From Draconibacterium orientale (lineage in GTDB: Bacteria > Bacteroidota > Bacteroidia > Bacteroidales > FEN-979): a DNA stretch of 43,265 nt. This document shows positions 35,742 through 39,174 of the stretch, piece by piece. Every line of letters starts with the position of its first letter. The stretch's first letter is position 1. A program made the position numbers and the translations under genes. The stretch covers positions 1-43,265 of the forward strand of contig DYSO01000007.1 in NCBI GenBank assembly GCA_020718225.1. Reading direction: 5' to 3'. The notes beneath the pieces were generated by a model. It was not told the DNA's origin. It was given only the letters and a program-made list of their open reading frames with translations, and did not search any database.

Positions 35742-37436
35742 TTATTTTAAATAGGTTCTGTTTAAATGGCAACGTAACGCAGTGATTTTTTTATCCCTGT
35801 CCATTTGGGATTCAAAGTACCTCCTTTTCGCTTCCAAGGAATTCATCATCCATTGAGTACATTCCGGATCATCGATGATTACCGGAATTTTTATCTCATC
35901 AAGGGCCCGATGTGTGTATGTTTTTCTGAGCAAAATAAAAAAATCAAGGACAGAAACGCTCATGACCGTCTGTTTTTCAATGTATTGCTGATGCTGAAGC
36001 AACCGGATCTTGTGCTCAATCCGTTCCGCAAGGATTTGTTTGATCGAATCATCCATGATCGTAGCGTCGACTTGAAGATGTTGAAGGCCCCGGGGAGTCG
36101 TTGCCTCACGGATCAATTGGTCAACCCGGGTCAACTCCGCCCCGATCTTTTGATATTGCTTAAAATCATCAAACAAATGTGTCACCTGTTCCATTGCCTT
36201 GCTGATTTCCATGCGGCTACCGGCATCCATGATCATTGAGTCAACCTTCAGGTTGCTGACAGCCCTGGTATTATCGGCATAGGCTAACTCCCGGTAAATC
36301 TCAAACTCAGCATTACCTTGGCGGAGCCTCCTGTAAATTTCCGAAATCATTTCAGCTTCGGCAATGAGTTGACCCCGGATACCGGTATTCCGGATCTCCG
36401 GATCAATGGTTATTATTGAATCTTCAAAACCACCTTGCTCCTCCCTTATGAATAGCAGCGCATTAAAAATTTTGTCTATTTGCGTACCGATCCATTCCTT
36501 GGGATTGTTCATTCGTACCTGGTCTTTCCTCATCTGAACGGTTTCATCGATCACCTCCTTCAGGTATTTGTTCTTTACCCTGAAATTCATCAAATGCTCC
36601 ATTTCATTGGTGTCGGATAGTTCGGACAGATGATAGACAATTTCGTCCCTGATTTTCTCCACCTCTGCAAGGTCTAATATTTTTAACCTGCTCGCGGCCT
36701 CAGAAATAGTTATGGACAGTTCTGTCCGAACCTTCTTATCCATGATACCTTCGGGAATCTTTATTTCCTTGATCTGTTCCGGGGTGGCAGCGAAAAGTAT
36801 TTCTCCGAGAAACTGCTGAATCTCCCTGACGAGATCTGTTTTCAGGTACATTTTTTCACCAAAATCCGACAGCTGTTTCTCTATGGCCTTTTGTCGGGTA
36901 ACGTAACCACACGGAAGATTTTCATTGATTGTTTTGTTGATCGGAAGATAGAGGGGCGTTCCGAACAGGTTGAGCGATGCATAAGCGGATTCGAGATTGG
37001 CCCTTTCGATGATCTGTTTTTTCCAGGAGATTTGCTGACAGAGATCATTATAATCTTCATCCCGGATCGGTTCCCGGTTTATGTGAATCGCATCCAGTAC
37101 CGGAATTGAATGGGCCATGCAGATCAGGTTCTGAATGCGCGCTTGCTCTGTAGCGCTGTTATAGTTGCGGATCTCTGATATCAGATACGCTTTTTTCGAC
37201 TCTGCTTGTTGAAGTAAATCGGTTGTGAAAACGCTGTCTGTAATTTCAGTCGCGGGCTTCAAATCATCAAGCCTTTGCAAATCAGCAATTTCAATGAAGC
37301 ATAAAGCGCTTAGCAGCGCTTCTTTTTCTACTTTGGAGGAAGGGAGCGGTTGCTTGTTGTTATTCTGGGCTTCGGATTGTCCAGGGTTATAAAGCAACAT
37401 CCCTGAAATAAGGATACCAACTATTTTCTTTCGCAT
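35742..37436 (-). CDS. Secreted repeat protein of unknown function
   Basis: Start at 37436 gives signal peptide MRKKIVGILISGMLLYNPGQSEAQ; the listed extension to 37661 lacks support; about 9 degenerate repeats with a roughly 58-aa period. Confidence 0.75.
   Translation of the reverse strand: MRKKIVGILISGMLLYNPGQSEAQNNNKQPLPSSKVEKEALLSALCFIEIADLQRLDDLKPATEITDSVFTTDLLQQAESKKAYLISEIRNYNSATEQARIQNLICMAHSIPVLDAIHINREPIRDEDYNDLCQQISWKKQIIERANLESAYASLNLFGTPLYLPINKTINENLPCGYVTRQKAIEKQLSDFGEKMYLKTDLVREIQQFLGEILFAATPEQIKEIKIPEGIMDKKVRTELSITISEAASRLKILDLAEVEKIRDEIVYHLSELSDTNEMEHLMNFRVKNKYLKEVIDETVQMRKDQVRMNNPKEWIGTQIDKIFNALLFIREEQGGFEDSIITIDPEIRNTGIRGQLIAEAEMISEIYRRLRQGNAEFEIYRELAYADNTRAVSNLKVDSMIMDAGSRMEISKAMEQVTHLFDDFKQYQKIGAELTRVDQLIREATTPRGLQHLQVDATIMDDSIKQILAERIEHKIRLLQHQQYIEKQTVMSVSVLDFFILLRKTYTHRALDEIKIPVIIDDPECTQWMMNSLEAKRRYFESQMDRDKKITALRCHLNRTYLK
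35804..37310 (-). repeat. Tandem protein-level repeats (about 58 aa, about 9 units)
   Basis: Anchor (I/V)-x-(D/N/E) at ORF residues 140,199,245,306,362,423,477,535,596; e.g. LKVDSMIMDAGSRMEISKAMEQVTHL / LQVDATIMDDSIKQILAERIEHKIRLL / IKIPVIIDDPECTQWMMNSLEAKRRYF / IKIPEGIMDKKVRTELSITISEAASRL. Confidence 0.65.
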
Positions 37437-37469: not shown

Positions 37470-37490
37470 TTTGGTAATGGGATTACCAAA
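37470..37490. promoter_or_regulatory. Perfect inverted repeat, possible operator or 5'-UTR hairpin
   Basis: TTTGGTAAT-GGG-ATTACCAAA, 9-bp arms, 33 nt upstream of the start at 37436. Confidence 0.4.
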
Positions 37491-37513
37491 TGTCTGCCAG
37501 AGGTTAAGAAAAA

Positions 37514-37743: not shown

Positions 37744-39174
37744 ATGAAAAAAGTGTTTTCGGTTTCATTGTTTATTCTGGCACCGTTGTTTCTGGCAGCC
37801 CAGCCGGTCAAGGGGGTCATTTATGCCGATACCACCAATATCCTGGTGGTCAAAGTATGGGGAACTCATCAGGAACGGGGTTATGCCCTGGGATATCTAA
37901 CCGGCGACCGCATCACCGACATCATCGAGAATTACATCAAACCCCAGTTCAGTGTCTATTATATCATGGCGCGGAACATCATCATCCAGGCGAATGACCT
38001 GCTGGTTGCACCGGATTATCATACGGAGGCTCAGGCCATCATTGACGGGATGAATGCAGCAGGTTCGAACACGGCCAGTCTCGATAAGACAGATATCCTG
38101 GTTGGGAACACCTTCCTTGACATTTCAAACCTCCTGATGATGAATTCAGGAGAGAATTGCTCGGCCCTCATGAGTTGGAGCGATGCCACTTCCGGTACAG
38201 ATCTGGATGGAAAATCGGTGATCAGCAGGCATGTCGACTGGCTCTATTCGGCAGTGCTCAACCGGAATCATGCCATCATCGTTCATTTTCCGCAGGAACC
38301 GGATGAAAGCAAATGGCTGCTGGTAGGTTTTTCAGGGATGATGAGCAGCCTTTCCGGATTCAATCCCGATTTCGGGGCATTTCAAAATATGATGAATGAC
38401 TTTTCTGGCAATGGACAGCACAATGCGCAATACAATCCGGTTTGGTTTGCCTTGCGCGATGCCATCGAAGCGGCAGACTACAATGGTGACGGTAGTCGTG
38501 ATGTCCGGGATGTCCGCTCCGCATTAGCTGCTTCTTCGCAAGGATTCGCGGATGGGTTTATTGTCAGTGCCCTGGCCCGGTCCAATCCCGTCGACAGCCT
38601 GGTGGCCATGGTCGCCGAACTGGCATCAACGGCTCCACTCCAGACTTACCGGTATAGTAATTATCCTGACAGTATTCCGGGCGACAATCTATACACCGCC
38701 AATTACCAGATCGCTCGAAACAACATGATGCATTTTTGCACACGGTACAACGGGATACGAAGTCATATCGGTAACGGCACCAATATTGGCCTCGACACAA
38801 ATTGGAATTTAATGCGTGACTATTCGCATCTGGCGACCAATACCCAGTTCATGCAATATGCTCCGGAACTTGATTACTTCAGGGTTTCGGTTTACCGTGA
38901 CGGAAAACCTGCCTATCAGAACGAGCCGGTTGTGTTTAACCTCAACGATCTCTTCGACAATCCGGCAACCGGGTTCGAACCACACGAAATGCCCCGTCAG
39001 GTTCATTGCTATCCCAACCCAGCCGGCGAAACCATCACTTATTCGATCAGCAGCGCCCAATGGCCGGAATCGTTTTCCGGATTTAGCGAAACCTGGCGCC
39101 AGGAGCTGGGATCGCTCCATGACAATATCAACAGGGCCATTTTTCAGATGATCTGGAACAAGGTTGCTATGTGA
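37744..39174 (+). CDS. C45/Ntn-hydrolase-like secreted protein with truncated type IX sorting-like C-terminus
   Basis: Signal peptide MKKVFSVSLFILAPLFLAAQ; GTHQERGYALGYLTGDRI; putative nucleophile region ENCSALMSW...GKSVISRHVDW; C-terminal VHCYPNPAGETITYSISS resembles the start of a T9SS CTD. Confidence 0.7.
   Translation: MKKVFSVSLFILAPLFLAAQPVKGVIYADTTNILVVKVWGTHQERGYALGYLTGDRITDIIENYIKPQFSVYYIMARNIIIQANDLLVAPDYHTEAQAIIDGMNAAGSNTASLDKTDILVGNTFLDISNLLMMNSGENCSALMSWSDATSGTDLDGKSVISRHVDWLYSAVLNRNHAIIVHFPQEPDESKWLLVGFSGMMSSLSGFNPDFGAFQNMMNDFSGNGQHNAQYNPVWFALRDAIEAADYNGDGSRDVRDVRSALAASSQGFADGFIVSALARSNPVDSLVAMVAELASTAPLQTYRYSNYPDSIPGDNLYTANYQIARNNMMHFCTRYNGIRSHIGNGTNIGLDTNWNLMRDYSHLATNTQFMQYAPELDYFRVSVYRDGKPAYQNEPVVFNLNDLFDNPATGFEPHEMPRQVHCYPNPAGETITYSISSAQWPESFSGFSETWRQELGSLHDNINRAIFQMIWNKVAM

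Follow-up and report, generated by a model that had tools for sequence, protein, structure and literature searches.

The described proteins closest to the one reported here are the TPR, HEAT/ARM, PPR and Sel1 alpha-solenoids, whose units are 31–47 residues long, and the HAMP and poly-HAMP proteins (PF00672; Aer2), whose period is about 50 residues. P0001, encoded in the window that we analysed (a 43,265-nucleotide stretch of Draconibacterium orientale contig DYSO01000007.1, assembly GCA_020718225.1), resembles the alpha-solenoids in its degenerate tandem helical units, which likely form an elongated binding surface, but its unit is 59 residues long, has no Pfam match, and is predicted to consist of one ~40-residue helix with an extended, motif-bearing connector. 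In its model it shares with HAMP proteins the helix-connector-helix arrangement and helices that run on from unit to unit, and a poly-HAMP protein was its best, non-significant fold match; it differs from them in its period of 59 and in having neither the G-D-L or D-E-(I/L)-G motifs nor profile similarity.

With respect to gene neighbourhood, the nearest described counterparts are the MoxR-vWA beta-propeller ternary conflict systems (Kaur et al. 2020, PMC7159879), in whose main text the word sigma is absent. Common to both are a beta-propeller protein, uncharacterised partners, occurrence in Bacteroidota and, in one cassette related to ours, a MoxR-type AAA protein. Here, however, the WD40 propeller is a separate gene and the recurrent partner is a sigma-54 activator. 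The vWA domain that characterizes the ternary systems was not found: the propeller protein P0003 matches only WD40/propeller-type models, and a 778-aa neighbour in the related locus L009 has no Pfam match. The operon in the window and its direct neighbours contain no MoxR-clade AAA+ gene, an AAA_5-type gene being present only in the L009 and L046 cassettes. The P0001 system is one that resembles the ternary systems and falls outside their definition.

P0001 is a 564-aa product with an ATG start, read from the minus strand at 35742–37436, and the first gene of a three-gene operon. The coordinates, strand and open reading frame of the original prediction were correct, but its residue numbers had been counted from an upstream TTG and were hence 75 too high. 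In the ATG-started protein the I-x-D anchors lie at residues 65, 124, 170, 231, 287, 348, 402, 460 and 521, and the spacing first given for them (59, 46, 61, 56, 61, 54, 58 and 61) is unchanged.

Self-alignment of residues 25–564 at an offset of at least 30, the check proposed together with the prediction, gave a clear repeat score of 97, compared with 41.4 ± 6.7 and a maximum of 63 in 200 shuffles, and its best path, shifted by one unit, extends over the full length of the protein. Each unit was then scored by a profile of the others, with 500 shuffles apiece. No shuffle did as well as unit 4 (residues 204–262; 36651–36827), unit 7 (375–433; 36138–36314), unit 8 (434–490; 35967–36137) or unit 9 (495–552; 35781–35954), and a single shuffle did so for each of unit 1 (38–96; 37149–37325) and unit 6 (321–379; 36300–36476). 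These six units, which like the others are on the minus strand, align without gaps over 59 positions. For unit 2 (97–150; 36987–37148), which is weak, 42 of 500 shuffles were as good, as were 19 of 500 for unit 3 (151–203; 36828–36986) and 323 of 500 for unit 5 (263–320; 36477–36650), these last two being without statistical support; when the three were scored against a model restricted to the six good units, they did no better than shuffles (94, 537 and 451 of 1000, respectively). The nine repeats that had been claimed thus comprise six that are solid and three that are uncertain, their scores being at shuffle level; units 2, 3 and 5 are plausible repeat units by position, unit 2 also by eye. 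The existence of the repeat is firm; the function of the protein is one that we infer.

Different units of P0001 are on average 15% and at most 24% identical, whereas orthologous units in the two species that carry the gene share 71–80% identity, unit 1 excepted at 41%, indicating that the duplications are old and that the units have not been homogenised. Stretches in the activator C-terminus and in P0002 that look alike by eye were considered as further copies of the repeat and rejected by the unit profile and hhalign.

The unit was predicted to lie outside the TPR, HEAT, LRR and WD40 families, and this holds in every library that we searched. The whole protein had a sole, non-significant Pfam match (p55_CTD, E 0.36), 12 units scanned singly against Pfam gave no repeat family among matches up to E 10, and no credible match appeared in NCBIfam, PADLOC, PHROGs or the PDB sequences. 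Profiles of the known Pfam helical repeat families (TPR, HEAT, ARM, PPR, Sel1 and others) do not match P0001; neither do those of LRR or WD40, and the structure model is all helix and loop. A literature search for a new helical repeat in Bacteroidota found nothing fitting. The proposal of a new repeat family stands insofar as no known family was matched, but its membership is so far one gene in two genomes.

Modelling of the full-length protein with AlphaFold from a two-row alignment reached a pLDDT of 42 and was discarded as unusable. A model of units 7–9, for which units 4–6 and 1–3 from both species served as extra rows, reached a pLDDT of 75 overall and 81–92 over the first ~110 residues, and is confident for two units (about 85–92 in unit 7 and about 81–89 over most of unit 8); the third, unit 9, is poorly modelled (37–73). 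Helices span model residues 31–70 and 89–132 (40 and 44 residues); the segment between them comprises a helix of five residues and an extended stretch in which the repeated L-x-(V/I)-(D/P)-x2-I-x-D motif lies. One ~40-residue helix, followed by a helix of five residues and an extended connector bearing this motif, would accordingly make up the ~59-residue unit. Foldseek found no match to the best model with E ≤ 0.001 among PDB and viral models.

The operon is tight, its genes being separated by 11 and 7 bases. Its second gene, P0002 (34351–35730, minus strand), encodes 459 residues with no match in Pfam, NCBIfam or PADLOC, and its third, P0003 (33054–34343, minus strand), a 429-aa WD40 beta-propeller (Pfam WD40, 6.9e-9, and related propeller models). 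A P0003-type gene adjoins the P0002 relative in every case checked. Counting the window, the pair occurs in seven genomes, the others being G020, G036, G021, G026, G345 and G375, and outside the window and G020 these cassettes lack P0001. A P0002 profile recovered only four genomes already known from a set of 84,980, and only its own gene from 386 phylum-level genomes.

We use the term sigma-54-activator-linked cassette, a grouping made here, for a P0002-WD40 pair beside a gene with a Sigma54_activat domain. The activator is divergent from the pair in G021, G345 and G375 and immediately precedes it, in the same orientation, in G026; in G036 there is none beside the pair, and in G020 it is on another contig. 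The G021 cassette (L009) also contains two further genes, one MoxR-type AAA and one TraB-like (assigned by eye and without a Pfam match), and an HD-type gene, with a Pfam score below the HD cut-off, is found in the cassettes of G021, G345 and G375 (L009, L021 and L022). The linkage is thus directly observed. Since analysis of the operon in the window revealed no effector, toxin or immunity domain, a conflict role is one that we infer from the neighbourhood in relatives only.

Several further observations concern these loci. The activators of L009, L010, L021 and L022 share an N-terminal region of ~150 residues and a C-terminal region of ~130 residues without Pfam matches, and show no recognisable DNA-binding end of the usual Fis-like type. 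A second G021 activator (L046 2102–9097) is divergent from MoxR-type AAA, TraB-like, TPR-like and HD-type genes and has no P0002-WD40 pair. A relative of the activator in G020 (C96; L045 9447–13955) is on the same strand as HSP70-like and TPR-like genes, both recognised by eye, and marks another cassette type of that regulator. Small proteins near the pairs at L011 6380–7150 (plus strand) and L022 4526–4993 (minus strand) have a similar-looking stretch (YRVMLYPSKSFSIRM.. and FRLWLFPETSFKVQL.., respectively) and are perhaps a further member of the cassette.

Of the regulator, the window retains a sigma-54 activator remnant of 41 C-terminal residues (39049–39174, plus strand) that forms an in-frame fusion with an unrelated gene for a secreted protein (37744–39174, plus strand), divergent from the operon. 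Aligned with the C-terminal end of the activator in G020, these last 41 residues have a Smith-Waterman score of 120, compared with 26.4 ± 4.1 for shuffles, and their position and strand agree with the activator layout in G021, G345 and G375. Relatives of the secreted protein elsewhere match residues 4–441 only; they are frames of 499 aa in G009, G014 and G019, and the copy here is cut at residue ~436–441. The fusion is either the product of a deletion or insertion or an assembly join. The genome assembly contains no further close activator of the kind, the best match covering the generic AAA part only. Upstream of P0001, a -24/-12 (sigma-54)-like site, CTGGCAGACATTTGGTA (37484–37500, minus strand), scores 19 of 26, a value that is reached by 14% of shuffles and is not significant. 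Sigma-54-type sites upstream of P0002 in L009 and L010 are better than all of 300 shuffles, and those before P0002 in L022 and L021 stand at 2–3% of shuffles.

Among 43 genomes of the family, the only relative of P0001 is a 69% identical protein in G020 (L008 150–1802; record CAIVAT010000132), a metagenome-assembled genome of an uncultured Bacteroidales. A P0001 profile found its own gene only in 393 order-level genomes, and a unit profile run over 396 Bacteroidota genomes found its own gene plus five matches of 18–23 bits that look like chance. Peptide patterns found no relative in the set of 84,980 genomes, and none was found in IMG/VR, plasmids or phages. P0001 is so far known from two species only, and the isolate names of related records can be read as placing its hosts among freshwater bacteria.

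Comparison of these two copies (dN 0.18, dS 0.60) gives a dN/dS of about 0.3, and P0001 as a whole is under purifying selection. The divergence is uneven. DNA identity between the window and L008 is 0.56–0.57 over the first 300 bases and 0.77–0.89 from about residue 150 to 550, compared with 0.58–0.75 in P0002 and P0003; pS is 0.54–0.77 in the N-terminal part of P0001, 0.09–0.47 from about residue 175 on, and 0.63–0.79 in P0002 and P0003. The low pS from about residue 175 on makes it probable that most of the array was exchanged after the remainder of the operon had already diverged, strong synonymous constraint being the alternative. Values of pN in the low-divergence block (0.05–0.16, single values being rough at 50 codons per block) are high for its pS, and the amino acids of P0001 seem to change fast for the age of the array.

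The explanation that we tentatively favour, while holding that it may well prove wrong, is that P0001 is a Sec-exported, all-alpha repeat protein with a binding or scaffolding function, accessory to the sigma-54-linked P0002-WD40 cassette. Its chain of units would build a long helical rod or solenoid, an overall shape extrapolated from the two-unit model, and would serve as a surface for binding or scaffolding, located either in the periplasm or on the outside of the cell; P0001 would be the accessory, fast-changing part joined to a P0002-WD40 core. A probable Sec signal peptide at residues 1–23 (37368–37436, minus strand) was recognised by eye, reading MRKK-IVGILISGMLLY-NPGQSEA with cleavage before the following Q, and its charged, hydrophobic and S-E-A cleavage parts are in the right order; judged from this putative leader, the protein is probably exported. 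Translation could instead begin at an internal ATG, Met13, leaving the leader unused, and such a start, which we count against export, would make P0001 a cytosolic scaffold whose array keeps P0002 and the WD40 protein in one complex with sigma-54-linked machinery. The operon partners would fit this arrangement, as neither P0002 nor P0003 has a signal peptide by eye, and an exported partner of leaderless, cytosolic neighbours is an unexplained point against our preferred explanation, as are the lack of P0001 in every other cassette that we saw, the failure to find an effector, toxin or immunity domain, and the unusable full-length model. The G020 copy fits a cytosolic scaffold too: four near-identical ~24-base repeats at L008 44–137 (TGGCA..TTTGCTCCGGAAT), which look like the end of an element that we take to be of IS21 type, stop within its leader, so that this copy lacks the start used in the window and has lost the first residues of the leader, yet its frame is still open and the ATG at L008:162 matches Met13. 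Nevertheless, the correct order of the leader parts and a hydrophobic stretch still readable in frame in G020 speak against a cytosolic location, which we consider unlikely, if a serious contender.

Export of a binding protein must also be weighed against the loss of any present function. Normal control looks damaged in both genomes with P0001, through the reduction of the activator to a tail here and the element-cut leader in G020, and together with the weak promoter site and a pN near or above pS in some blocks this could describe a decaying orphan, a relic that lost its activator and promoter control. Such decay is rather improbable, as all three operon genes keep open frames across 4.4 kb in each genome, the G020 leader excepted, and the overall dN/dS is about 0.3. 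Poly-HAMP-like architecture, in which diverged helix-connector-helix modules would form a continuous chain and a parallel dimer passing conformational signals, would agree with the helices continuous between units in the model and with the top PDB fold match, the poly-HAMP protein Aer2 (E 1.8, probability 0.35, TM 0.36–0.41). That match is not significant, however, and HAMP identity by sequence was rejected: no unit matched HAMP in the Pfam scan, a HAMP family search of the genome does not list P0001, and when profiles were compared with seven HAMP domains encoded in that genome, E was 0.55 over 9 columns. We regard this as very unlikely.

In the cassettes of related genomes, a sigma-54 activator and, in one genome, MoxR-type AAA, TraB-like and HD-type genes suggest a regulated stress or biological-conflict cassette. 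A bolder version, to which we attach little likelihood, is that a hitherto undescribed conflict or stress system under sigma-54 control uses the new fold of 59-residue alpha-helical repeats as its outward-facing, exchangeable arm for binding, with P0002 and WD40 as its core, MoxR, TraB-like and HD or HSP70 and TPR partners in sister cassettes, and an array recombined between lineages. With only two members and a conjectural function, the finding carries moderate weight. A unit that the curated libraries lack nonetheless adds to the building blocks of helical-repeat proteins, and with its recombining array P0001 is a fair candidate for a recognition surface that varies. The repeated occurrence of P0002 with a WD40 protein and a sigma-54 activator suggests that freshwater Bacteroidales have a regulated system so far undescribed.
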